Assembly (NCBI GenBank): GCA_030836185.1
Contig: JAURQH010000010.1
Location: 62,001-126,000, forward strand
Direction of reading: 5' to 3'
DNA from: Planctomycetota bacterium
GTDB taxonomy: Bacteria; Planctomycetota; Planctomycetia; Planctomycetales; Planctomycetaceae
Length of the DNA stretch: 64,000 nucleotides
Shown here piece after piece: positions 1 through 13,692 of this stretch (positions within the stretch are counted from its first letter, which is position 1; each line of letters starts with the position of its first letter). The notes beneath the pieces were generated by a model, which had not been told where the DNA came from, did no database searches, and saw nothing but the letters and a program-made list of their open reading frames with translations. The translations under genes were made by a program, and so were the position numbers.

Positions 1-981
1 ATTACGATCAAACCTGACCGAAAACCTGACATTCTGACCGAACTTGATGCCACATTGATGGAACTTTTGGCATTTGGAGTGGGTGCAGGTTTGTCCCGCT
101 TAGAGCAGGAACGCAATGCGTTGGCGGCTCAAACACGCTTTGAAGAGTTCTTCACTCCGGGGCTTTCGAAGCGATTGATGAATGACTCCTCAATCTTGAG
201 AGGTCATGAAAGACCAGTTTCCATTTTGTTTTGTGATGTTCGAAAATTTAGTCAGTTTACTGAGCAGTTTGGGCATCGAATGACTGTCAGTTGGCTCAAC
301 GATCTACTCGGGGTCCTCTCAGAAGTTGTTTTGGATCGAGATGGAGTGCTTGTTGATTATTCCGGTGATCAGGTGATGGCAATGTGGGGAGCACCAGAAC
401 AACAGCCAGATCATGCCGTTCGTGCGTGCGAAGTCGCTTTGTCAATTCTCGAACAAATTCCCAAGATCAATCAACGTTGGAGTTCCTATTTGAATGGAAA
501 GCAAATTCAAGTCGGGTTGGGCATTAGTACCGGCCAGGCATTCGTGGGAAATATTGGTTCCCATCGAAAATTCAAATATGGAGCACTCGGTAATGTTGTG
601 AATCAGGCGAGCCGTATTCAAAACGAAACAAAAAAGTATCATTGTCCGATATTGATTTCGTCGGAAACCCTTGCAGAGCTTCCTGCCGAAATGGTCGAGC
701 ATCAGACGCGACGCATTGGAAAAGTAAAACTCCGCAATCTCAAGGATACCGCCACTCTCCATCAGCTTGTTCCAGTAAACACGGAGGGCTTTCTGCGAAG
801 AAAAACATTGATGGAGGAGTTTGAGGCGAAGCTAAGTCGTGACCACTTCGGTGAAGCGGTGGAAGTTATTCAAACCATTCTCGAAGAGTTTCCCGACGAT
901 GGGCCAGCACGCGCTTATCGAAAACAGCTCTCGGGACAAGATGCTTTCGATGGTGTAACCGATCCGGATAAGACGCCTTAA
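1..981 (+). CDS. Adenylate/guanylate cyclase, class III (5' end outside window)
   Basis: The reading frame is open to the first base of the window, so this is the C-terminal part of a longer protein. A class III nucleotide cyclase catalytic domain begins around the motif SILFCDVRKFSQF, which carries the first metal-binding Asp. It continues through VDYSGDQVMAMWGAP, the second metal Asp region, and GISTGQAFVGNIGS. Such domains make cAMP or cGMP from the nucleoside triphosphate; substrate choice cannot be decided here. The residues before the domain may be the end of a GAF or similar sensor module, as is common for this family in planctomycetes, but that is inference. A short C-terminal helical extension follows. 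It ends 31 bases before a convergent gene. Cyclic-nucleotide-binding domains occur in a redox protein 8 kb downstream. Confidence 0.88.
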   Translation: MTIKPDRKPDILTELDATLMELLAFGVGAGLSRLEQERNALAAQTRFEEFFTPGLSKRLMNDSSILRGHERPVSILFCDVRKFSQFTEQFGHRMTVSWLNDLLGVLSEVVLDRDGVLVDYSGDQVMAMWGAPEQQPDHAVRACEVALSILEQIPKINQRWSSYLNGKQIQVGLGISTGQAFVGNIGSHRKFKYGALGNVVNQASRIQNETKKYHCPILISSETLAELPAEMVEHQTRRIGKVKLRNLKDTATLHQLVPVNTEGFLRRKTLMEEFEAKLSRDHFGEAVEVIQTILEEFPDDGPARAYRKQLSGQDAFDGVTDPDKTP

Positions 982-1012: not shown

Positions 1013-2839
1013 CTAGAATTTCGATTGAAGCTCGAAGCGAACGCCTTGGCCGATGTCGGTTGATTCTCCTTTGGAAACAAACGAATCAATCACAAAGAAC
1101 CAATGTTGATCGAGTGCTTTTTGATAGCGTAAGCCAGTTGCGATCGCGGCGTTGTCGGCACCATTTGTGTCTTGCCTCCCGCCAATCTCAAAGACAACTT
1201 GTTCTTTGAGGTCATTGTAGAACATCTGATAGCCGAGACTCCCCCCCACAACACTATTCGCCTGGTTGCTCAACGGGGCTCCGTATCGTCCCAACCCAGC
1301 GGCTGAAAATAAGAGTCCGGTTTGTCCCAACGGACCTCCCCCCAATGGGCCTCTCGATGCGGAGGTGAATTGATCGATCCCCCAGAACGTGTTTAAAAAG
1401 ATCAGGTCATTGGTGTGGTGTGGTGTCCACGAGAATTGATGAAACAACAGTTCTCCTTGTGAGGCATAAACCGTTTCATCATCCGTCGGAATCGAAGCCA
1501 AAAGATGAAGTGATGAGTTGTAGGTGTTGTGGAATCCCGAAAGACGTTGAATCGCACTCAATCCAATGACCACCATGTCTCCAAGCCCATTTTCTGACCA
1601 GACATAGGCGACATCCGCGTTTACGGTGCTTTGACGAAAATTACTCTCGGTAAAGAAACCGGCAAGTTGAGAATCGTTATCGTGACGATTAGGCCCCATC
1701 ACATTATGGCGATTGATCTCGTTCCAGGCGTACACGAAGGTGCCGCGAAAATTCAGATTGCCGTTTCCATTGAGCGTGTTTCGTGTCACAGTGACAGCAT
1801 CAATACGGTCTTCGTTGAGGAGTAATCCCTGTTGGAAGGAAAGTGGTTGCCGTCCGATGGAAAAACCATAATCGAGTGCAGCCGTGTCAAACGGATCAAG
1901 GTTGGGGAAAATTTCACCAAAGTCACCTTCAAAGAACAGTGTTTGTGGTTCTGCGTTCCACCCGTCCAAAGCATCGCCATTGCGAATGTCGTATCCTGTA
2001 AAGCGGCGTGACGTCGAAGTTTCTTCATCGAGCGGTCTCATCCCAAACAAAATCCGCTCTGTTCCCGAAAGGTTTAATTGGGCAAATAGATCGAGACGAT
2101 TGGCCCATTCACCAACGGCTGGTCCTGTGCCGCCGTCAAAGTAATTTGCTCCCGTCCGATAAGTTCCAAACACCCACAATGCTGGTCTCCAGACAGCGCC
2201 TGTTGGCGTTACGACTCCCTGTTCTAGGAAACCTGCTCCCAAAAACTCTTCATTCAGTTCCAACAACAATGGGGGACGATCAGGAACCGATTGGAGGCCA
2301 ATGGCATGGTGGTCCAATTCGGTGTGCGGTTCGTCGTGTTCAGAGTGCAGTAAGACTTCCAAGAGATGAGAAAGTGGCTCGGCGGGTTTCCCAATCGCTT
2401 CAAGAAATGCTTCCAACAGATGATAACAGGCTGGCTCTTCTTCCTCAGGAACGCATGGATCGTAGGCAACGTGGCCAGCAAAGGGGCTCGGACAACCGGG
2501 CCCTGTGTGGTAGCTGAAAGGAATTAAGTTGGATTCAGGATAATCTGATGTTGATTGATGATTAGACGACTGTGGAAGAGGTGGTAGCTTTTTGTCGCTG
2601 AGTGCTTCTTCAGTCACCGGAGCAGGTGGGATCTCAATCGCTGTGGACGCTGTGGAAAACTGCGCAGGGGGAAATTGCGAGGTTTGAATCCCGGAAATAT
2701 CGACCGCCGGTATGCTTAACTCTTCTGCAGAAATTGTTGTCGTGCTTGAAATCATGTTCCAACTGACGAACCACAAGACCACCGCAGTCCTGCCGACTGC
2801 GGTGAGACGTGTCAAATTGTGTTGATTCGTAGCTCTCAT
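1013..2839 (-). CDS. Outer-membrane beta-barrel protein downstream of a multihaem cytochrome
   Basis: The protein is about 608 residues from the ATG at 2839. That start gives a hydrophobic signal peptide (AVVLWFVSWNM region) and avoids overlap with the upstream gene. Residues 30-190 are Pro/Ser/His-rich linker. The rest alternates polar and aromatic residues as in transmembrane beta-strands, with many Asn/Gly turns, and it ends in a terminal Phe (FELQSKF), the usual signal for outer-membrane barrel assembly. I do not recognise a precise family; it resembles large porins of the carbohydrate or alginate-export type. It starts 22 bases after the stop of the five-haem cytochrome gene on the same strand, so the two are probably one operon. 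Porin-cytochrome pairs can carry electrons across outer membranes, but that role is inference here. Confidence 0.75.
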   Translation of the reverse strand: MRATNQHNLTRLTAVGRTAVVLWFVSWNMISSTTTISAEELSIPAVDISGIQTSQFPPAQFSTASTAIEIPPAPVTEEALSDKKLPPLPQSSNHQSTSDYPESNLIPFSYHTGPGCPSPFAGHVAYDPCVPEEEEPACYHLLEAFLEAIGKPAEPLSHLLEVLLHSEHDEPHTELDHHAIGLQSVPDRPPLLLELNEEFLGAGFLEQGVVTPTGAVWRPALWVFGTYRTGANYFDGGTGPAVGEWANRLDLFAQLNLSGTERILFGMRPLDEETSTSRRFTGYDIRNGDALDGWNAEPQTLFFEGDFGEIFPNLDPFDTAALDYGFSIGRQPLSFQQGLLLNEDRIDAVTVTRNTLNGNGNLNFRGTFVYAWNEINRHNVMGPNRHDNDSQLAGFFTESNFRQSTVNADVAYVWSENGLGDMVVIGLSAIQRLSGFHNTYNSSLHLLASIPTDDETVYASQGELLFHQFSWTPHHTNDLIFLNTFWGIDQFTSASRGPLGGGPLGQTGLLFSAAGLGRYGAPLSNQANSVVGGSLGYQMFYNDLKEQVVFEIGGRQDTNGADNAAIATGLRYQKALDQHWFFVIDSFVSKGESTDIGQGVRFELQSKF

Positions 2840-2861
2840 GGGATAACGCTTGGAACTTCTG

Positions 2862-4796
2862 TTATTTAACTCGTACTTGAGAAATTCGCTCGTGAACAAC
2901 CAAATGGCCGTCAACGATGGCGCGGGCCAGTTGTTTGGCGCTCATGCCGTAATCAAAACCGACATCAGAAATTTCGTGAACCAGATTGACGGGAACCATG
3001 CCGGCAATGAGTTGCACGCGAACTGTGTAAGTTCCTGCACCGGTGATCTGCTTACCTTTGAGTTGATAACGAGCATCGATCCCGCCATCAACTTCAATGT
3101 TTTGTTTGTGTTTTCGAGCTCCGACTGGACGCCCCAAAACGGTGAAGGCTCGTGTCGCGGGGCGAGTGTAAGGCAGGGGATCAATCGAATACGGCACATT
3201 GAGAACTTGCTCTCTTTCTCCTCCACGTATGTTTCTGGTCACAAAACGCGATTGCAGCGAGACCAGATTACGGTCGAGTGGAATTTCACCGTTGTGAACG
3301 TAAAGGGAGTGACTGTCTCGAACGTCACCGTTCGGGTCGAGGTCACCCGATTGAAACACCATACGGCCTGTGGGATCCCACACATGAACTCTGAGGAACA
3401 CCATCCGCTCGGCATCGAAACCGGTCGGGACACCGTGTCCTGGAGTTCCATTACGGAGATCAATCCCAAACTCCAGCTCCTCGCAGTCGGAGCGATGAAA
3501 TTCGATTTGTCCGAGGTGGTAACCGGCTCTGAGAATTTGTAATCGGGCGATTGTTGCTTCGGTGAGTAATTGGTATTGATCGTTCAGTATTTGACGAGCT
3601 TTTAGGCGTTTCTGTTTGTTGTCCCATGGGGACGGGAAGTGCGTACTCTCTGTGACCGTTTTCTCGTATGCTTCCGTTCCCCAGCCTGCTGCATCATCGA
3701 AGCAAAGCCATTCTCGCATGGTGGCAAGCCCTGATTCTGTAATCGCTCCGCTAGTCGCTTCGTCAATCAGATCGACAGTCCCCTCTTCGCGAATCGCTTC
3801 CGGGTGGTGGGGAAACAAGCCTCTGTGAATCACCGGATAATCGGGGCCGATCATCATATGGTTGGTATGTTTTCGGGATGCCGTACTGACGTTTCCAACA
3901 ACAGCCGCTGGCCCAAATGTATAACCTTTGGCTTCTCCCGGGACGGCTCCCATGTGGCAGTCCTGACAGTTGTGCCCATGAATTTTAGCCGACGGTGATT
4001 GTTTGAATTCAGAAAACGCATCTTCGAGCCGAAACCCGTTTGGTGCAAAGACATCGTGGCAGGTACCGCAAAATCCCGAAGTGGTAATTTGAAAGAAACG
4101 ATGCGAGACTTTGTGAATATTTCGTCCGCGAACGTCGGCAGCCTTCTTGGTTTTTAGAACGCCGAACTTGTCAGGATTTGTCAAAACCTGGTTTAACACC
4201 TTGCTGCCGATGGGCCCATAGACGGCTTGCTGAACATCACCGGGAACCAACGCCTGGCGTCCAGCACCTTTTCCCCAAGCTTGATTGATTCGATGGCAAC
4301 TGATGCAGGTAACACCTTCACGCGAAGTGGGATGACGATTCAGATTGCTGGTGTTCAAGGGTTCGTTGAGTGCCATTCCGGTTGGTGTGTGGCAACGGAT
4401 GCAGAAATCTCCCAGTGTTCCTGAATTGAGTTTATTTAACTTGTTTGACATCGCATTGAAGACAGGACTTAACTGAGCATAGGCATGTGGAGAGACCGAC
4501 CACTCCCGATAATGCTGCGGGTGGCAGGTTGCACATTGTTTAGCTGATGGGAAGCAATTGTCTTCAAAACACTCTGCGTGAGCCTGATCGATGGCTTGTT
4601 GAAGAACCGTTTCCCGGTTGTGGTCAATCTTTTGATCAGCGAAGGAATGAATTTTAGAGACCGCAACAGTGCTTTGTTTTTCTTGCGCATTGACATCAGG
4701 AGGGCAACAAGACAGAGCGAATGCCCCCAGCACAAAAATGGCTCCCACCATCTTGTCCGCGTTCAGAACGAATTTTTGGCCTCTGGTCACCGTCAT
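2862..4796 (-). CDS. Secreted multihaem (five CXXCH) cytochrome c
   Basis: The 644-residue protein has an N-terminal hydrophobic signal segment (residues 17-31). Five c-type haem-binding motifs follow: CATCH near residue 88, CIRCH 132, CISCH 164, CGTCH 243 and CQDCH 277. Many spare histidines could be distal ligands, for example HPQHYREW and SPHAYAQ. This half resembles the cytochrome c554/multihaem family. Residues 400-640 contain no haem motif and are rich in beta-type sequence, perhaps a partner-binding or substrate domain. The protein should act in the periplasm or at the outer membrane. It is the first gene of the minus arm of the redox locus, is followed after 22 bases by a large beta-barrel protein, and is divergent from the reductase gene at 5232. 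The electron donor and acceptor are unknown. Confidence 0.85.
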   Translation of the reverse strand: MTVTRGQKFVLNADKMVGAIFVLGAFALSCCPPDVNAQEKQSTVAVSKIHSFADQKIDHNRETVLQQAIDQAHAECFEDNCFPSAKQCATCHPQHYREWSVSPHAYAQLSPVFNAMSNKLNKLNSGTLGDFCIRCHTPTGMALNEPLNTSNLNRHPTSREGVTCISCHRINQAWGKGAGRQALVPGDVQQAVYGPIGSKVLNQVLTNPDKFGVLKTKKAADVRGRNIHKVSHRFFQITTSGFCGTCHDVFAPNGFRLEDAFSEFKQSPSAKIHGHNCQDCHMGAVPGEAKGYTFGPAAVVGNVSTASRKHTNHMMIGPDYPVIHRGLFPHHPEAIREEGTVDLIDEATSGAITESGLATMREWLCFDDAAGWGTEAYEKTVTESTHFPSPWDNKQKRLKARQILNDQYQLLTEATIARLQILRAGYHLGQIEFHRSDCEELEFGIDLRNGTPGHGVPTGFDAERMVFLRVHVWDPTGRMVFQSGDLDPNGDVRDSHSLYVHNGEIPLDRNLVSLQSRFVTRNIRGGEREQVLNVPYSIDPLPYTRPATRAFTVLGRPVGARKHKQNIEVDGGIDARYQLKGKQITGAGTYTVRVQLIAGMVPVNLVHEISDVGFDYGMSAKQLARAIVDGHLVVHERISQVRVK

Positions 4797-5231: not shown

Positions 5232-6515
5232 ATGTTTCCAATGCAAATCCTCGGCTGCATTCTGATTTCGCTGGTCGGATTGCGTTTGGTTCTTTCGTTG
5301 TGGGACTCGATTCGTACGCAGCAACACTCCGCAAATCAACGTCGTAAGTCGCTCGAACTTCTGGATGAGCGAATCGCATCGATTCGTGCATTGCGAAAAC
5401 AAACAGAGACTCAGCAACCACACTGGAATGGTTATCGGAAGTTTCGAGTGGATCGTAAAGTTCTTGAAGCTGATAATATCTGTTCGTTTTATCTGGTTCC
5501 CCATGATGGGAAGCCGTTACCCAGTTATCGCCCCGGACAGTTTTTGACATTTCGATTTCAATTACCTGATCAGAAGATGCAAAAATCAAAGCCGGTCGTT
5601 CGATGCTATTCGCTGTCAGATGCTCCCCGCCCGGATTATTATCGTGTGACAGTGAAGCGAGTTCCGTCTCCACCCGGTGTTGATGCTCCCGAAGGTCGTA
5701 TTTCCAACTATTTTCACGACCATGTGATCGAGGGGGATATTCTGGATGTACAGGCTCCGCGGGGTGATTTTTCTTTGGACCCCGCAGAAGAGAGTCCGGT
5801 TGTTTTGGTCGGGGGTGGGGTCGGAGTGACTCCGGTCTTGAGTATGGCGAACACGATCCTGGAAACCGACATTCAGCGAGATGTCTGGTTTTTTCTAGGA
5901 GTCCGTTGTGGACGAGAACATCCGATGAGGGAGCATCTCCAACAATTGGACGAGCGGTATGATCGTTTTCACCTCATGGTTTGTTATAGCTGTCCCGAAG
6001 AGTGCGATGAAAGTGAGAAAGATTTTCAGCGTGAAGGACATGTGAATCTGGCAGTCATCCGGGAAACGGTCAAAGTCTGCAATTTTGACTTTTATATCTG
6101 CGGGCCTCCTCCCATGATGGAATCATTAGTTCCAGATCTTAAAGACTGGGGAGTTCCTGAAGAGAAGATTCACACTGAAGCGTTTGGGCCTGCGACAGTC
6201 AATCGTGCGAAGAAGCCATCAACTCCTCAAAAAAATCAGACTGACGGTGAGAATCAGCCCGAAATTACGATACAATTTAGCCGATCAGAAACATGTGTCA
6301 CATGGGACCATAATCAGCAAAGTTTACTCGATTTTGCTCTCGATCAAGGGATTGAAATCGACTCCGGTTGTCGTGCAGGAAGTTGCGGATCGTGTGAAGT
6401 CGCCGTGAAACAGGGGGAAGTTGAATATACAGTTGAGCCAAGTGTGGAAGTCGAAAAGGGGTCGTGTCTGGCATGTATTTCCTGCCCGAAAACAAACTTG
6501 GTTATTGAAGCCTGA
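5232..6515 (+). CDS. Flavin/2Fe-2S NAD(P)H oxidoreductase (FNR fused to ferredoxin)
   Basis: The 427-residue protein has one N-terminal membrane helix (residues 5-22). A ferredoxin-reductase FAD domain follows, with the RxYSL-type motif RCYSLSDAP. The NAD(P)-binding domain has GGGVGVTPVLSM and CGPPPMM. A C-terminal plant-type 2Fe-2S domain carries ligands C380, C385, C388 and, by spacing, C418. The order FNR-NAD-2Fe-2S matches NqrF-like or phenol-hydroxylase-type reductases. It should pass electrons from NADH or NADPH through FAD to the cluster on the cytoplasmic face and then to a membrane partner. It is the first gene of the plus-arm redox operon, 36 bases before the first tetrahaem cytochrome, and is the likely electron entry point. 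No good Shine-Dalgarno sequence precedes the start; an ATG nine bases later is an alternative. Confidence 0.87.
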   Translation: MFPMQILGCILISLVGLRLVLSLWDSIRTQQHSANQRRKSLELLDERIASIRALRKQTETQQPHWNGYRKFRVDRKVLEADNICSFYLVPHDGKPLPSYRPGQFLTFRFQLPDQKMQKSKPVVRCYSLSDAPRPDYYRVTVKRVPSPPGVDAPEGRISNYFHDHVIEGDILDVQAPRGDFSLDPAEESPVVLVGGGVGVTPVLSMANTILETDIQRDVWFFLGVRCGREHPMREHLQQLDERYDRFHLMVCYSCPEECDESEKDFQREGHVNLAVIRETVKVCNFDFYICGPPPMMESLVPDLKDWGVPEEKIHTEAFGPATVNRAKKPSTPQKNQTDGENQPEITIQFSRSETCVTWDHNQQSLLDFALDQGIEIDSGCRAGSCGSCEVAVKQGEVEYTVEPSVEVEKGSCLACISCPKTNLVIEA

Positions 6516-6551
6516 GAAATTCATCATTTGAGAATATTGAGGGAGTGGATT

Positions 6552-7709
6552 ATGACATTTTCACAAAACCGTCTCGCAAAGAATAACGTCCTGTTGGTGG
6601 CCGGTTTACTGGCTCTGATCGGGATGGGCGTCTCATCGGCGATTTCCGGAAATATTGAACAGTCAACATCCTCCCGAGTTGTGAAGAATGATTCGGTGGC
6701 AACTTATCACACATCCGCGACGGCTGTTTTCAATGTATCCGAACAAATTGTCGGATCCGCATCCTGCAAAGAGTGTCATAAAGCCGAATATGCAGCCTGG
6801 ACGGCAACCGTCCACTCCAAGAACTTTGCAAGAATTGGCTCGCCTTCTGGGCAGAAGATTTCTGCCGCGTATGGCAATACCGAGGCTTGTCTCAAATGCC
6901 ATTCCACTCCACATACTCCGACCGCAAAATTTGAATCGGAGCAAGTCGGCGTCTCCTGCGAGTCGTGTCACTCGGCAGCCGGTGGGCCAGAAGGCTGGTT
7001 CAAGCTTCATTCTAATTACGGGGGTGAAGGTGTTAAACGAAACGATGAAACAGAAGCACATCGCAAAGAACGGCTTGCCGGTTGCGATACCGCAGGTATG
7101 ATACGTGCCAGCAATGTTTATGCTTTGGCGAAAAACTGCTATTCATGCCATGTGGTCGCTGATGAAAAATTGCTAGCCGCTGGCCACAAACCAGGACATA
7201 GCGACTTTGATCTCATTCCCTGGATGCAGGGTGAGGTTCGACATAACTTCCAAGTCGATCAAACAGTGAATGCCATTTCACCGTCCCTGTTAAAGGCTCG
7301 CGACGGTGTCACAACCGAACAACGTAAGCGTGTTTTATTGGTGACCAGTAGAATGGTTGAACTGGAAACCTTGCTACGAAATCTGGGTTCGATTAGCGAA
7401 GAGAATCTGGGGGAGAGCTACGCGGGCCGTCGTGGTTGGGCAGGTCGAGCGGAAGATATCTTTGAGTATCTTGACGAAGAAATCGGGGAGGCCATCGACA
7501 ATGAGCATGTTAAAGCTGTTGTTGAGGCGGTCAAAGAGATCGAACTTGGTCGCAAATTTGAAGATCAGGATGCCGCAATGAAGGCTGCCGATCAGCTCGC
7601 CAAAATTGTTCAAGAGTTTCTGGACTCAGCAGGCGAAGCAGATCTTGCTGGGCTCGATCCACTAATCGAGGAACTTGATAAACCGGTAGGGAAGCCGTAT
7701 TTGCCTTAA
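6552..7709 (+). CDS. Tetrahaem cytochrome c, c554-like (first paralogue)
   Basis: The start at 6552 is chosen because AGGGAG lies just upstream; an in-frame ATG at 6528 has weaker support. The 385-residue protein has an uncleaved or cleaved N-terminal hydrophobic segment (residues 12-31). Four haem motifs follow: CKECH (C72), CLKCH (C113), CESCH (C136) and CYSCH (C196). The spacing and the SAAGGPEGW motif after the third haem fit the cytochrome c554 family. Residues 250-385 are helical, acidic and haem-free. The protein should sit in the periplasm, probably anchored, and take electrons from the redox operon's membrane components. The next gene encodes a paralogue with the same four-haem plan, so the pair arose by duplication. 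Confidence 0.88.
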   Translation: MTFSQNRLAKNNVLLVAGLLALIGMGVSSAISGNIEQSTSSRVVKNDSVATYHTSATAVFNVSEQIVGSASCKECHKAEYAAWTATVHSKNFARIGSPSGQKISAAYGNTEACLKCHSTPHTPTAKFESEQVGVSCESCHSAAGGPEGWFKLHSNYGGEGVKRNDETEAHRKERLAGCDTAGMIRASNVYALAKNCYSCHVVADEKLLAAGHKPGHSDFDLIPWMQGEVRHNFQVDQTVNAISPSLLKARDGVTTEQRKRVLLVTSRMVELETLLRNLGSISEENLGESYAGRRGWAGRAEDIFEYLDEEIGEAIDNEHVKAVVEAVKEIELGRKFEDQDAAMKAADQLAKIVQEFLDSAGEADLAGLDPLIEELDKPVGKPYLP

Positions 7710-7760
7710 TTGCTGGCGTGTCACCCTGACGAAGGAATCCGAGATTCAGGAATGAAAGTT

Positions 7761-8951
7761 ATGCTCAAAAAGTGGAGGCCTCTTCGAAGCCATACCATCA
7801 ACTGGTTTCTCGGTTGCACGGTTGCTTTCTCCTGTTTGGTTGCATGGCTACCCGGAGAAGGAGGCGATGTTTCCGAGGTGACCACTCTCTCAGTCAACGC
7901 TAAAAAAACGAACATTAATCCAGATCGCAGCAAGTTCATGGGTGCTCGCGCGTGTCTTGATTGTCATCGTTCGGAATATGTGTCCTGGTTGGGAACCGAG
8001 CATTACAAGAATCCGATCAATCGCTTTGAAATCAGCGATGTCAGCGTCGCGAAAAAGTATCTCGATCAAGGAGGTACTCTTGACCGTTGCTACTCGTGTC
8101 ACTCTGCACCAGAAGAGAAAAACTTTGGGCGGCTTGCGGTGGAAAGCGGGACTTCTTGCGAATCGTGCCACGGTGCCGCCGGAGGCGAGTCTGGTTGGTT
8201 GAATCGGCATGCCGTTTATGGCCCCAATGTCACCACGCTGGCACAAGAGACACCAGAACATTATCGAAATCGAATCGATTACTGTGATCAGGCCGGTATG
8301 ATTCGTCCCAGTCATCAATACGAAGTCGCCAAAAATTGTTTTCGATGTCACATGATTGGCGATGCAACATTGGTCAGCGATGATGTCGGTCATCCTGTGA
8401 TTCATAAAAAGTTCAGTTTGATTCCCTACCTGAACAGTGATGTTCAGCACAACTTTCATTTGAATCAAAGATCCAATGCTGATGCTCCCACTCTCGACAC
8501 TCTTCGTCGGGGATTGTCATCATTGGAGCGCAAACGTGTCTACTTGGTGTTGGGGCAACTGGCGAAAATCGAAGTGGCATTACGGTATTTGGTCGATTTT
8601 CCGAATGACGAGGCTCTCGAAGAACGGTATGCAGGTAAATTGATCGATGCGTTTGAGGATGGGGCTGATGAAATTGACTACTATGTTGAGCTTTTACTCG
8701 AACCTGATGACGATGACATTAAACCTCTGGAAGAAGATGATGTCGAGTTGTTGTTGACAGCCTTTGAATTATTCGAAGAGTTTGATGATCTTGACAAACA
8801 AACTCGCGCAGCGGCTGCAGAAACGGCAAACAAGATTGCCGAAATTGCTGAAGGATTCCTGAAAGACTTTGGTGACGGAAAACGCTTGGCAGCATTAGAC
8901 ATTGTTTTTGAAGAACTTGACGATTCTCCCAGTAAACCGCTGCAACCATAA
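7761..8951 (+). CDS. Tetrahaem cytochrome c, c554-like (second paralogue)
   Basis: The ATG at 7761 has AGGA nine bases upstream; the ATG at 7752 is too close to it, so 7761 is preferred. The 396-residue product has a hydrophobic N-terminal segment (residues 13-31). Four CXXCH sites lie at C65, C110, C133 and C193. Its haem region aligns with the preceding gene: both have AGMIR, the CESCH-xAAGG-xxGW block and a QHNFH/RHNFQ motif before the helical tail. The tail is strongly acidic with runs of Asp/Glu around residues 310-350. The protein is periplasmic or membrane-anchored. The acidic tail may dock a basic partner, which is inference. It lies 51 bases after its paralogue and 27 before the ferredoxin-like gene, in one operon. 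Confidence 0.87.
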   Translation: MLKKWRPLRSHTINWFLGCTVAFSCLVAWLPGEGGDVSEVTTLSVNAKKTNINPDRSKFMGARACLDCHRSEYVSWLGTEHYKNPINRFEISDVSVAKKYLDQGGTLDRCYSCHSAPEEKNFGRLAVESGTSCESCHGAAGGESGWLNRHAVYGPNVTTLAQETPEHYRNRIDYCDQAGMIRPSHQYEVAKNCFRCHMIGDATLVSDDVGHPVIHKKFSLIPYLNSDVQHNFHLNQRSNADAPTLDTLRRGLSSLERKRVYLVLGQLAKIEVALRYLVDFPNDEALEERYAGKLIDAFEDGADEIDYYVELLLEPDDDDIKPLEEDDVELLLTAFELFEEFDDLDKQTRAAAAETANKIAEIAEGFLKDFGDGKRLAALDIVFEELDDSPSKPLQP

Positions 8952-8978: not shown

Positions 8979-10772
8979 ATGCGCGGGATGAGCAATGTCC
9001 AAATTAAACGGCCCGAACGCTGGTCAGTTCCCTTTTCGGAATCGATGACCGAGGAGGACGTTGAGTATGTCCTTCAGATGCCGTTGTTTGCGGAAGGGAT
9101 GATTGATCCTGAGCAATTTGGGAAGCGGATTTCATTGGCTGGGATATTGAAAAATGATGCCAGTCTTCTGAAGTGTCATCAAGGTGAAATCATCGTCAGA
9201 GAAGGTGAGTGGGGGAACTCGGCTTTCTTTCTACTCTCGGGCAGTGTCAGCGTCGCCGTACAACGCGGGAATGATTCGTTACCAGCAGAAATTCTGGGGC
9301 GATCCAATATCCGTCAAAAAAGCTTCATCGATATTTTGAAACAGCTCTGGAACGGTCATCGTCAGGTCGAATCTCGGGATCTTGAAAAATACTCAGCAGA
9401 GTCTCCGTCGTCCCGAACGACTAAGGAAGGGACGCGAGTTTATCTACAAGATATTTCGATTGCGTTGGATCTCGAAAAATCGGCAACCATCAACGCGGTC
9501 GATTTTTTTGGTGAGCAATCTGCCTTGGGGCGGATCGAACGGACGGCAACCGTAATCGCGGCGGGAGATTGTGAACTACTCGAAATCCGCTGGCAAGGGA
9601 TTCGAGATATGATGTCCAAAGCGCCCTGGTTGAAATTACAGATCGAATCGCGATTTCGCATGTACGGTTTACAGCGATTTTTGCAAGCATCCCCTTATTT
9701 CGAGCACTTGTTACCAACCGAGGATCGGACACCAGAGGATGTTGAGCGACGTAATGCTCTTTTTCAGAACGTCCTCGATGATGCCGATTTCCGTTCGTAC
9801 GGTTCCTACGATAAGGTCGAGAAGTTTACGAAACTTGTGGAATCGGGGACAGCATCCAATTTGGTGCATGAACCTCTCATCGCCAAAGAAGGAGATTACC
9901 TGGAAGGCGTCTATCTGATTCGCAGTGGTGTCGCGCGGGTTTCTCATCAAGCCGGTCACAAGCATCGTACGGTCAGTTACCTGACTCCGGGGCAGGCATT
10001 TGGCGTGAATGAAATGATTGAAGGGTGGAAAACAAGCCGACACGCCGATTTACGCTATTCGTTACGGGCTGTTGGTTATGTCAATGTGATCTTTATTCCT
10101 GCGCGAAACTTTGAACAAGCGGTCTTGAATGAGTTAATGGCGAGAGAACAATCTCATTCGACGTTCCCAGATCATCTGAGTTCAAAATCGAGTGATGAAA
10201 TCGGACAGATTGATTCTGGTTTGCTCGAATTTCTTGTCGAACGCCGATTCGTCAATGGCACGGCGACCATGGTGATCGATCTTGATCGCTGTACGCGGTG
10301 TGATGACTGCGTAAAAGCTTGTGCGACGACCCACGATAACAATCCACGTTTTTTAAGGCATGGACCCATCTATGACAAGTACATGGTTGCGAATGCCTGT
10401 ATGCACTGTGCAGACCCTGTTTGTATGATTCAATGTCCCACGGGGGCCATTCATCGGAGTATGCAAGGCGGTGAAGTGGTCATTAACGACACAACCTGCA
10501 TTGGATGCAGTGCGTGTGCAAACAATTGCCCTTACGATGCCATCCGTATGGTTCATATTCGTGATGAACAGGGAGATCTCATCTTTCCGACGGCGTCAGA
10601 GTCAGGCACATCGGCGCCCGTTTCGCTCACACCTCTTACCAAAGCAACGAAGTGTGACCTTTGTGCGGAACAGATCACCGGGCCAGCATGCCAACAGGCG
10701 TGTCCTCACGATGCGTTAGTGCGATTAAATTTGGGAACATCGGAAACAGCAGCAGAGTGGTTTAATCGATGA
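8979..10772 (+). CDS. Cyclic-nucleotide-binding domains fused to a four-cluster 4Fe-4S ferredoxin
   Basis: The 597-residue protein has no signal peptide. Two Crp-type cyclic-nucleotide-binding folds are recognisable. The first spans about residues 50-225, with EGEWGNSAFFLLSGSVSV and DFFGEQSALG, and is interrupted by a loop near 110-160. The second spans about 280-375, with KEGDYLEGVYLIRSGVARV and PGQAFGVNEMI. The C-terminal 160 residues are a DmsB/NrfC-like ferredoxin with four cysteine groups: CTRCDDC from C438, CMHC, CIGCSAC and CDLC, each with a following distal Cys-Pro or Cys. It should move electrons on the cytoplasmic side, perhaps gated by a cyclic nucleotide. The next gene, a cytochrome b-like membrane protein, overlaps its stop by four bases (ATGA), so the two are translationally coupled and probably form a complex. 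Confidence 0.86.
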   Translation: MRGMSNVQIKRPERWSVPFSESMTEEDVEYVLQMPLFAEGMIDPEQFGKRISLAGILKNDASLLKCHQGEIIVREGEWGNSAFFLLSGSVSVAVQRGNDSLPAEILGRSNIRQKSFIDILKQLWNGHRQVESRDLEKYSAESPSSRTTKEGTRVYLQDISIALDLEKSATINAVDFFGEQSALGRIERTATVIAAGDCELLEIRWQGIRDMMSKAPWLKLQIESRFRMYGLQRFLQASPYFEHLLPTEDRTPEDVERRNALFQNVLDDADFRSYGSYDKVEKFTKLVESGTASNLVHEPLIAKEGDYLEGVYLIRSGVARVSHQAGHKHRTVSYLTPGQAFGVNEMIEGWKTSRHADLRYSLRAVGYVNVIFIPARNFEQAVLNELMAREQSHSTFPDHLSSKSSDEIGQIDSGLLEFLVERRFVNGTATMVIDLDRCTRCDDCVKACATTHDNNPRFLRHGPIYDKYMVANACMHCADPVCMIQCPTGAIHRSMQGGEVVINDTTCIGCSACANNCPYDAIRMVHIRDEQGDLIFPTASESGTSAPVSLTPLTKATKCDLCAEQITGPACQQACPHDALVRLNLGTSETAAEWFNR

Positions 10773-11596
10773 GAGCTCTCACCCGACGCCGTACAATCAA
10801 TGTCTGTTTGACTCTCTTAGTGGCTTTTGTACTGATCGGTGCCGCTTGGATCGTTAAAAACACGTTGGTCGAAACTCACTTTCTGACAGGCTGGTTTTTT
10901 TTTGTCACGATCATTTTTCTTGCGGCATACAATCTTCGTAAAGCGTTCCCTTTTCTCCCACTCGGAACTTCAGCACAGTGGTTGCAAGTCCATATTTATG
11001 CAGGCTTGTTATCGTTTGTGTTGTTTCTGATTCACATTGATTATGAATTGCCGAACGGTTTTCTGGAATCGTTTTTGGCATCGGTTTATCTGGTGGTTTT
11101 TGGGAGTGGTCTTGTCGGGTTATACATGAGTCGGACATTCCCCAAACGGCTTACAGATCTCGGTGAAGAAGTCATCTTCGAGCAGATACCCGTTGTTCGA
11201 AATAACATTCAAACGGATGTTGAAGACGCTATCCTTGAATGTACGGAGGAGATCCACAATTCTGAGATTCCCATGTTTTATCGCAATGAAATTTACCCGT
11301 TTATCATGCGTAGGCCAGACCGATGGTCGCATTTCGTTTACGGATACAGTCGGTATTGGAGACCTCTGCAGAAAAAATTGTCTGATGCGAAACGTCTGTT
11401 CGATGAGGAAGAACTGAATGCGTTGGCGAAGGTCGAGATTCGATTGTCTCGGAAACACCAACTCGATACCCAAGAGACTCTGCAATTTGCTTTGAAAGTT
11501 TGGTTGTTCATTCACATCCCGGCAACCTATTCTTTACTTACCTTCACTGCGTTACATGTGGTTCTTGTTCAAGTGTGGTCGGGAGGGGCGTTATGA
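10769..11596 (+). CDS. Dihaem cytochrome b-like membrane protein
   Basis: The 275-residue protein has about five hydrophobic segments: residues 11-29, 39-55, 74-91, 102-119 and 243-270. Two helices each contain a pair of histidines 14 residues apart, H75/H89 and H249/H263. That is the spacing used by dihaem b-type cytochromes, where each haem takes one histidine from each helix. The soluble loop (120-240) is charged and may bind the preceding ferredoxin. I cannot place it in a named family; ferric-reductase-like or NrfD/DsrM-like proteins are the nearest ideas. It overlaps its neighbours by four bases on both sides (ATGA junctions), which argues for coupled synthesis and a shared complex. The proposed role is to pass electrons from cytoplasmic clusters to periplasmic haems. 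Confidence 0.72.
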   Translation: MRALTRRRTINVCLTLLVAFVLIGAAWIVKNTLVETHFLTGWFFFVTIIFLAAYNLRKAFPFLPLGTSAQWLQVHIYAGLLSFVLFLIHIDYELPNGFLESFLASVYLVVFGSGLVGLYMSRTFPKRLTDLGEEVIFEQIPVVRNNIQTDVEDAILECTEEIHNSEIPMFYRNEIYPFIMRRPDRWSHFVYGYSRYWRPLQKKLSDAKRLFDEEELNALAKVEIRLSRKHQLDTQETLQFALKVWLFIHIPATYSLLTFTALHVVLVQVWSGGAL

Positions 11597-13692
11597 GCAA
11601 TACAGACTCCCCCTCTGGATTCGACACCAACAGTTATCAACTCCCACAACAGGATTGGGTCTGCGGTCATCTGGCTGATGGTAGCCCTTGTTCAATCGGT
11701 CCCAGTACAAAGGGGAGTTGTCTCGCAGAAAATATCTGCCACCCTCAATTCGACGGGAAGAAGTGGCATTGCACTCGTCCTAATGCTTGGGGAGGGCAAT
11801 GTCACGACGGCCCAATTCCTGATGCGGCTTGTCCCGAGGAAAAAGCGATATGTCCCCATCAACCAGCGGCATGCCAACCCGCTCGCAGCTTGAGAAACCG
11901 CCGGAGAATAGTAACGGGATTGGTTTTCGCGGCTTCTTTGGGGATTTGCCTCCTCATTTTAGGTGGCAGTTCAGGCAGCTCGTCATCGACGCTCTTCCAG
12001 ACAACGAAAATCATTTCTCCGGGGCCACTTTCTTCACCGCATTCAGTGATTCAGGAAGGGTGCAAGGCGTGTCATCCTTCAAGCCATCTGACTCCGGTTT
12101 CGATGGTGAGTGAGGCATGGGACTTTCATCACAAAAAACATCAAAGTGAACTTTGCTTAAATTGCCATCAAGATTTTGGTGAACATGCAATGAACGCGCA
12201 TAGTGCCAACCCGGAGCAGTTAACGACATTGAGAAAACAATCTACGGGAAAAACTCATTTGACGAGTGACCAGATCTGGGTACGAGCGCTGATTGGAGAT
12301 CAAATTTCTAATGCCGAAGAACTGAACTGTGCGACTTGTCATCAGGAGCACCAGGGAGCCAATTTCGATTTAACACACCTGACCAACAAACAGTGTCAAA
12401 GTTGCCACGAGAATACCTTTCATAGCTTTAGTGAGGGTCACCCTGAATTCGAGACAGTACGGGTTCGTATTCGCTTCGATCATAGCAGTCATTTCGAACA
12501 GCACTACAAAAATTACCCCTTCTTGATGCCCGGCGGTATCCCGAAACAAAACTGTAACGAGTGTCATCAACTTTCTTCAGACGGTGCTACGTTTCAACTC
12601 GCAGGATTTGAAGCGATGTGTGCCTCGTGCCATGAGTCACAAATTCTCGACTTCCAGATGCCGACGGCATTACGACTGGATCAGTTTGAGTTTTTGAAGT
12701 CCTCTGAAACATCAGATTCTTCGACCGTGAAGTCTTTGGAGTTGCCGCCATTCATGGAGTTGATGTTGCGTGCCGATGAAAAGATTGCAGTTGCCATTGA
12801 TACGCTTCAGGAATCAGTGGTCTCAGGTGATGAACTACAGTCCAAAAATATTGCTTTGATTGCAGAAGCAACTCGCAGCTTACTGATCGAACTGAAGCAG
12901 CAAGGTGCGGAAGTAGTGGAGCAGAGATTGAACCGATTCACTGAAGGTCCGAAAGTCGCCAAGCTGGTGGAGTCTTTGGTCGAAGCCTTGGATCGGTCTC
13001 AGTTTTTTGAACTGCTCTCTGCAAGTCATTTCGGCGAGAATTTGAAATCTGAAGGTTCCGACGACTCAGTCAAAGACCGTGAATTCACTCTCAGTTCCTG
13101 GACAATGCTGAACGATCAATCCTCTGTGGAGTATCGGCCTCAACAACATGCCGATCCACTTATCAAAGCTTGGCTGGATTTAATGGCGAATCAAGCTAGT
13201 GCCTCTTACGAAGAGGTTGAATCACCCCATCATAATCGTTTTGACGACTTTTTTCGGGCGGCTGTTTCTCCAGAAGCAGCCGGTCGTTGTACCAAGTGCC
13301 ATACCGTTGATCGATTGTTAGATGGTTCCCTCAGAATCAATTGGGGAATCCTGCCCGCAGATCAATTTCAGCGGCAGTTTTCAGAGTTCGTGCATCGTCC
13401 GCATCTCACGTTAATGCAAGATCGTTCTGCCCCTGAAGCTTCACAAGCTGTTGAAGAAGAAGTCTGCCTGAAGTGTCACCAGCCGGAGGAGCCCAAACCG
13501 TTCTTTAATCGTTCAGCGTTTGTCTTGTCCGATGGTATGCCTCATACCGACTTTCATCATGCGAACTCTACGGGGTACTTACCGATTCAAAAACGTGATT
13601 GCGTGCAATGCCATCAACCAAAAATGGCTGGCGACAATTGTCTTCAGTGTCACAATTATCATGTGCATGAAAACTCAGTCTTGCGAAGATGA
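11593..13692 (+). CDS. Membrane-anchored decahaem cytochrome c with cysteine-rich cytoplasmic head
   Basis: The start at 11593 has GGAGG upstream and overlaps the previous stop by four bases. The 699-residue protein has three parts. Residues 20-95 hold nine cysteines in GxPC/GGxC/PDAxC patterns and no CXXCH, so they may bind metal or FeS. A single membrane helix spans about 106-124. A large periplasmic region then carries ten CXXCH motifs, the first at C157: CKACH, CLNCH, CATCH, CQSCH, CNECH, CASCH, CTKCH, CLKCH, CVQCH and CLQCH. Groups of six and four haems are separated by a helical haem-free stretch. The haem part resembles cytochrome c3/c7-type nanowire proteins. It ends the redox operon and overlaps the convergent methyltransferase gene by 18 bases. 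Confidence 0.85.
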   Translation: MSNTDSPSGFDTNSYQLPQQDWVCGHLADGSPCSIGPSTKGSCLAENICHPQFDGKKWHCTRPNAWGGQCHDGPIPDAACPEEKAICPHQPAACQPARSLRNRRRIVTGLVFAASLGICLLILGGSSGSSSSTLFQTTKIISPGPLSSPHSVIQEGCKACHPSSHLTPVSMVSEAWDFHHKKHQSELCLNCHQDFGEHAMNAHSANPEQLTTLRKQSTGKTHLTSDQIWVRALIGDQISNAEELNCATCHQEHQGANFDLTHLTNKQCQSCHENTFHSFSEGHPEFETVRVRIRFDHSSHFEQHYKNYPFLMPGGIPKQNCNECHQLSSDGATFQLAGFEAMCASCHESQILDFQMPTALRLDQFEFLKSSETSDSSTVKSLELPPFMELMLRADEKIAVAIDTLQESVVSGDELQSKNIALIAEATRSLLIELKQQGAEVVEQRLNRFTEGPKVAKLVESLVEALDRSQFFELLSASHFGENLKSEGSDDSVKDREFTLSSWTMLNDQSSVEYRPQQHADPLIKAWLDLMANQASASYEEVESPHHNRFDDFFRAAVSPEAAGRCTKCHTVDRLLDGSLRINWGILPADQFQRQFSEFVHRPHLTLMQDRSAPEASQAVEEEVCLKCHQPEEPKPFFNRSAFVLSDGMPHTDFHHANSTGYLPIQKRDCVQCHQPKMAGDNCLQCHNYHVHENSVLRR

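Follow-up and report, generated by a model that had tools for sequence, protein, structure and literature searches.

A ferredoxin fused to tandem cyclic-nucleotide-binding domains as a possible second-messenger-gated entry subunit of a transmembrane electron conduit

Cyclic nucleotides are thought to control bacterial respiration mainly via transcription. One gene in a 64,000-nucleotide stretch of DNA from a Planctomycetota bacterium (the window, which is the whole stretch analysed) joins cyclic-nucleotide-binding (CNB) domains to an iron-sulphur protein, and this arrangement raises the question of whether a second messenger could act directly on an electron carrier. A preliminary description of the locus had suggested that electron transfer is gated here by a small ligand such as cAMP. 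Below we consider what the protein, its neighbouring genes and its relatives in other genomes indicate about this proposal.

The encoded protein, termed CNB/Fd herein, consists of two CNB domains followed by a 16-Cys ferredoxin of the HycB/DmsB type with four [4Fe-4S] motifs (Table 1). In Pfam searches, three stretches of the 597-residue protein matched cNMP_binding (E 1.3e-25), and a number of 4Fe-4S dicluster models were matched as well, among them Fer4_7 (E 1.7e-12). Together with the fold matches given below, these results uphold the original assignment of Crp-like folds ahead of a DmsB/NrfC-type ferredoxin. The protein was also said to lack a signal peptide, and indeed neither a signal peptide nor a hydrophobic N-terminal stretch or transmembrane segment was found in it. 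No DNA-binding domain was found in the 597 residues, and Pfam gave no match to a helix-turn-helix (HTH), the C-terminus being occupied by the ferredoxin instead. A CRP/FNR-type transcription factor was ruled out on the basis of the missing HTH match. The proposed translational coupling to a b-type cytochrome gene is real, as the stop codon of the CNB/Fd gene and the start codon of the cytochrome b gene overlap by 4 bp (ATGA at 10769-10772). The cytochrome b gene overlaps the following decahaem cytochrome gene in the same manner (ATGA at 11593-11596).

Table 1. Features of the locus, in window coordinates.
Feature	Position	Strand	Remarks
Class III nucleotide cyclase, C-terminal part	1..981	+	whole gene, 617 aa, is L114:1128-2981
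Predicted outer-membrane beta-barrel (OprD/Occ/AlgE-like)	1013..2914	-	usually beside pentahaem gene
Pentahaem cytochrome	2862..4796	-	similar to c552 5ze8
Membrane-anchored FAD/NAD(P)H reductase (FNR/NqrF-like)	5232..6515	+	C-terminal [2Fe-2S]
Tetrahaem cytochrome c554-like	6528..7709	+	
Second tetrahaem cytochrome c554-like	7710..8951	+	
CNB1-CNB2-4x[4Fe-4S] ferredoxin gene (CNB/Fd)	8979..10772	+	597 aa; start perhaps in-frame ATG at 8988
CNB1	9162..9650	+	residues 62-224, variable insert at residues 100-145; Pfam, alignment and fold match
CNB1 phosphate-binding cassette GEQSALGRIERTATVIA	9510..9560	+	Arg188 is CGG at 9540-9542
CNB2	9864..10154	+	residues 296-392; CNB fold, degenerate cassette
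Ferredoxin domain, four [4Fe-4S] motifs	10266..10733	+	residues 430-585; profile and Cys pattern
Membrane cytochrome b	10769..11596	+	275 aa; conserved His75, 89, 249 and 263
Decahaem c cytochrome, TM-anchored	11593..13692	+	10 CxxCH; Cys-rich N-terminal domain predicted cytoplasmic

An AlphaFold2 model of CNB/Fd (alignment of 74 homologues; pLDDT 82, pTM 0.82) was compared with solved structures by using Foldseek and VIA-align, which group the tandem CNB portion with PKA and PKG regulatory subunits of the PDB. CNB2 aligns with CNB-B of PKG II (Z 16.0, rmsd 3.3, 143 aligned residues), CNB1 aligns with the cAMP-gated acetyltransferases of mycobacteria (4orf and 4ava, Z ~13), and further matches among solved relatives include a guanosine-bound PKA-R (6hyq) and DNR. 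The PKA and PKG subunits provide the best whole-tandem matches, sharing the tandem fold and, for PKA, the GE-x8-R spacing of the cassette. However, the output of CNB/Fd is an iron-sulphur electron carrier with no kinase involved, its pocket is intact in CNB1 only, and CNB1 carries a large insert. In the mycobacterial acetyltransferases (Rv0998 and its M. smegmatis homologue), an N-terminal CNB domain governs catalysis without transcription, as is proposed for CNB/Fd, although these enzymes have one CNB domain and an acetyltransferase output.

The preliminary description had made its reading depend on whether the nucleotide contacts, and the phosphate-binding Arg in particular, survive in either fold, and the two folds give different answers. 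The cassette of CNB1 reads F-G-E-Q-S-A-L-G-R-I-E-R-T-A-T-V, in which eight residues separate Glu179 from Arg188, and it thus keeps Gly178, Glu179 and Arg188. The contacts have been lost from CNB2, where Val343 replaces the Glu and Leu358 replaces the Arg. Ligand gating is therefore plausible via one fold only. Gly178 and Glu179 are invariant among 82 homologues, and in the clade to which the window protein belongs (54 rows, ~37 effective) Gly178, Glu179, Arg185 and Arg188 are all 100% conserved. Mean entropy in this Arg-containing clade is 0.94 for the CNB1 cassette, compared with 1.75 for the whole of CNB1 and 1.09 for the ferredoxin, and the equivalent stretch of CNB2 (2.29) is more variable than the CNB2 mean (1.91). 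The CNB2 pocket is degenerate nearly everywhere, with exceptions in L030/L031-type and Sphingobium proteins. Pocket geometry was assessed only from sequence and fold matches, by which CNB1 appears to present a functional-looking pocket under strong selection and CNB2 a degenerate one.

Position 188 is occupied by Arg in 56 of the 82 homologues, by Gln in 22, by Met in three and by Ile in one. On a tree of the 82 rows, built with the cassette columns left out, this state shows just two changes, of which one falls in a gammaproteobacterial subclade and the other marks a clade of Zixibacteria, Acidobacteria, KSB1 and Ignavibacteria. Given that Arg188 is missing from two clades, cAMP gating cannot be universal in the CNB/Fd family. 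Moreover, the 26 homologues with a replacement have a similar operon, and therefore the chain can run without a canonical cyclic-nucleotide pocket. The ligand could as well be cGMP or another compound as cAMP.

The four cysteine groups named in the preliminary description (C438/441/444/448, C474/477/482/486, C507/510/513/517 and C559/562/571/575) are conserved across 74 homologues, with 15 of the 16 residues invariant and the remaining one at least 90% conserved, and we infer that they hold four [4Fe-4S] clusters. When sequences of solved structures were searched, the closest match to the ferredoxin part was HycB3 of the hydrogen-dependent CO2 reductase HDCR (7qv7, E 1.2e-16), followed by DmsB/NrfC-like subunits; among profile models, TIGR02951 was matched with E 4.9e-17. 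The domain thus shares its four-cluster pattern with HycB, HydN and DmsB-type subunits, with HycB3 and the DmsB/HydN models as best sequence matches. It differs from them in being fused to CNB domains and in falling below all curated NCBIfam cut-offs (the equivalog thresholds for DmsB, HydN and NrfC are unmet, with 62 bits against 214 for DmsB). In addition, the window cassette is without a molybdoenzyme or hydrogenase gene.

The genes around CNB/Fd encode the other parts of what could be a complete electron path. Among 55 homologues of the cytochrome b, the four His residues are invariant or nearly so and lie on two helices with H-x13-H spacing, a pattern predicted to hold two bis-His haems b. 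The decahaem cytochrome carries its Cys-rich domain (W-x-C-G...GP...G-x-C) ahead of the membrane helix. This domain is present in most loci of the Arg-retaining clade and missing from the Arg-less Zixibacteria/Acidobacteria clade, and an FHA-like domain is found in that position in Sphingobium. The same working plan is used by the Tmc, Hmc and DsrMKJOP complexes of sulphate reducers, in which a cytoplasmic Fe-S subunit is combined with a membrane cytochrome b and an external multihaem c cytochrome. Unlike those complexes, the cassette adds CNB domains and a flavin reductase, and Pfam revealed no CCG-domain or NrfD-type subunit among its proteins.

The pentahaem and beta-barrel genes (window 1013-4796) form a conserved pair, possibly a periplasmic reductase and a channel dedicated to its substrate. 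Porin-cytochrome conduits such as MtrCAB and Ext likewise pair a multihaem cytochrome gene with an outer-membrane barrel, whereas the barrel of the window, as modelled, resembles OprD/Occ/AlgE channels. A profile of the barrel matched nothing useful among PDB sequences. Its AlphaFold2 model (pLDDT 72.6) is OprD/AlgE-like by Foldseek, with MtrB not among the matches listed, an absence that is no proof. We therefore consider a substrate channel likelier than an electron conduit for this barrel and do not favour an MtrCAB-like arrangement. Given also that the pentahaem cytochrome is related to c552 (5ze8), a small periplasmic substrate would suit the pair better than a solid one as final acceptor.

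The cassette recurs in planctomycetes, verrucomicrobia, acidobacteria, gammaproteobacteria and other groups in the order FNR, tetrahaem c554, CNB/Fd, cytochrome b and decahaem c, often with the pentahaem and beta-barrel pair. Among the 43 loci with long flanks, a protein with at least nine CxxCH motifs is encoded in 41, the cytochrome b in 33 and the FNR in 31. Flavin modules other than FNR are also observed. In Sphingobium, the CNB-CNB-4x[4Fe-4S] unit shares one chain with an NAD(P)H-flavin module of the Pyr_redox type; both CNB cassettes of this chain look canonical by eye, and the fusion gene is followed by genes for a similar cytochrome b and for a decahaem cytochrome with a weak N-terminal FHA match. 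The Arg-less Zixibacteria-type clade has instead a separate Pyr_redox+FHA+[2Fe-2S] protein that adjoins an FHA-FHA protein. That different flavin modules occupy the same place argues for electron exchange between the ferredoxin and NAD(P)H, in one direction or the other.

Several other loci depart from the common arrangement. The Sphingobium fusion is carried by plasmids in 12 Sphingobium records, including pMSHV of Sphingobium herbicidovorans (L115:7750-10227). At L071:11954-15310, the CNB/Fd operon adjoins genes for FHA-FHA and Pyr_redox+FHA-FHA+[2Fe-2S] proteins, suggesting that phosphothreonine signalling may serve as a second input. In a 1359-aa open frame (L109:6807-10883), an FHA domain separates the ferredoxin from the best CNB match. 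The protein of L111:6459-8909 bears extra N-terminal 4Fe-4S sites (weak Nqo3-like match), and its gene follows a class III cyclase gene at a distance of 33 bp, with no cytochrome b match nearby. Finally, the CNB/Fd gene of a member of the Kiritimatiellae is divided between two overlapping frames (L061:7953-9717), perhaps because of a frameshift or an assembly error.

A class III cyclase adjoins the cassette in the window, and this supports ligand gating via CNB1. The cyclase has a weak GAF match and an FHA-like N-terminus, and it accounts for one of only two Guanylate_cyc matches in this genome. Under a model that assumes random gene positions and uses genome-wide cyclase counts, a cyclase gene within 11 kb of CNB/Fd is expected in 0.56 of 28 genomes and is found in eight; counted by genus, the figures are 4/17 observed and 0.40 expected (P 4e-4 under random placement). 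Given these genome-wide counts, we do not favour a chance neighbour. Adjacency was observed only where the Arg is retained (10/29 loci vs 0/14), a correlation that tracks phylogeny and is non-independent. Most CNB/Fd loci are without a cyclase, 8-kb flanks included. The cyclase of L057, which is also near a CNB/Fd gene, matches that of the window over nearly its full length (33% over 598 aa).

The purine-recognition pair of class III cyclases is usually Lys...Asp, with the Lys recognising adenine. In the planctomycete cyclases near CNB/Fd this pair is apparently exchanged to Asp...Lys, and therefore the product of the cyclase is uncertain. The swapped residues sit in 'VDYSGD' and 'KFKYG' in the cyclases of the window (55-981), L057, L095-L097 and L101. 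L113, the other cyclase of this genome, shares the exchange.

With these observations in mind, we consider the transmembrane conduit itself to be well supported, and we give roughly even chances to the fuller proposal that CNB/Fd is the cytoplasmic electron-entry subunit of this NAD(P)H-driven conduit, with a cyclic nucleotide at CNB1 gating the flow. The membrane-anchored flavin/[2Fe-2S] reductase would draw electrons from NAD(P)H and hand them to the four [4Fe-4S] clusters, from which both haems b of the coupled cytochrome b would receive them. The electrons would in this way cross the membrane and reach the decahaem cytochrome, which would deliver them to the tetrahaem and pentahaem cytochromes. 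The order of this chain is deduced from domain content and gene order. The flavin modules suggest its direction, but electrons could also run the other way. A cyclic nucleotide produced by the linked cyclase would bind to CNB1. The PKA-R-like tandem of CNB1 and CNB2, in which CNB2 would bind no ligand and act as a transmitter, would then move or uncover the ferredoxin and so allow or halt electron flow. We propose gating because the CNB1 pocket is kept and a cyclase is linked. Nucleotide binding, the identity of the nucleotide, and haem and cluster occupancy are predictions made from sequence.

The intact CNB1 pocket would serve equally if the CNB pair governed assembly or location, with the nucleotide bringing the soluble ferredoxin onto the membrane complex or setting its oligomeric state. 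CNB domains act as interaction modules in PKA, and CNB2 retains its fold and several conserved residues despite a lost pocket, as might be expected of an interface domain. We nevertheless judge this reading unlikely, as the CNB domains of the Sphingobium fusion lie after the flavin module and before the ferredoxin, a placement that suits intramolecular control. The near-universal decay of the CNB2 pocket, outside the exceptions already named, and the retention of the operon by two clades that lost the CNB1 Arg would be explained if both folds were structural scaffolds from a CRP/PKA-like ancestor that bind nothing in vivo. Relaxed structural use should not yield a cassette that is better conserved than the rest of CNB1, and slightly better than the average of the ferredoxin, or four cassette residues conserved without exception in the clade of the window, and it does not account for the cyclase linkage; hence we think this quite unlikely.

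It is improbable, in our view, that the CNB1 pocket binds some other ligand, such as another nucleotide or a metabolite. Precedents are known in DNR and in the guanosine-binding PKA R subunit of trypanosomes, both types are represented among the matched solved relatives, and the Gln or Met that replaces Arg in two clades may mark altered ligands. However, the cassette of the window is of the canonical kind for cyclic phosphates, and the locus has a linked cyclase. Our preferred reading is still a ferredoxin gated through nucleotide binding to CNB1.

Gating of bacterial enzymes and channels by CNB domains is already known, and so are multihaem/cytochrome b conduits. What appears to be new, judging from the open-access literature, is the joining of these elements via a single electron carrier. 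We know of no earlier second-messenger-gated electron conduit, and CNB/Fd would be the first if binding and gating are both true. In the open-access PMC literature, which excludes subscription papers and preprints, we found no description of a CNB domain combined with a ferredoxin, multihaem cytochrome, FHA domain or extracellular electron transfer (EET), and a genomic survey of EET quinol oxidases and reductases (PMC6295460) mentions neither a ferredoxin nor a cyclic nucleotide. The cassette is also present in cultured bacteria, including Sphingobium herbicidovorans and Sulfidibacter corallicola, and Arg188 of the window protein offers a precise residue for testing the proposal. We assign slightly less than even chances to the proposition that, in a widespread bacterial chain, a cyclic nucleotide acts directly on the cytoplasmic ferredoxin to open or close it, which would make the chain a second-messenger-gated transmembrane electron conduit. 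If true, such a chain would give bacteria a fast post-translational switch over the destination of NAD(P)H electrons, exerted by allostery on an electron carrier, and would constitute a redox counterpart to cyclic-nucleotide-gated channels and PKA.
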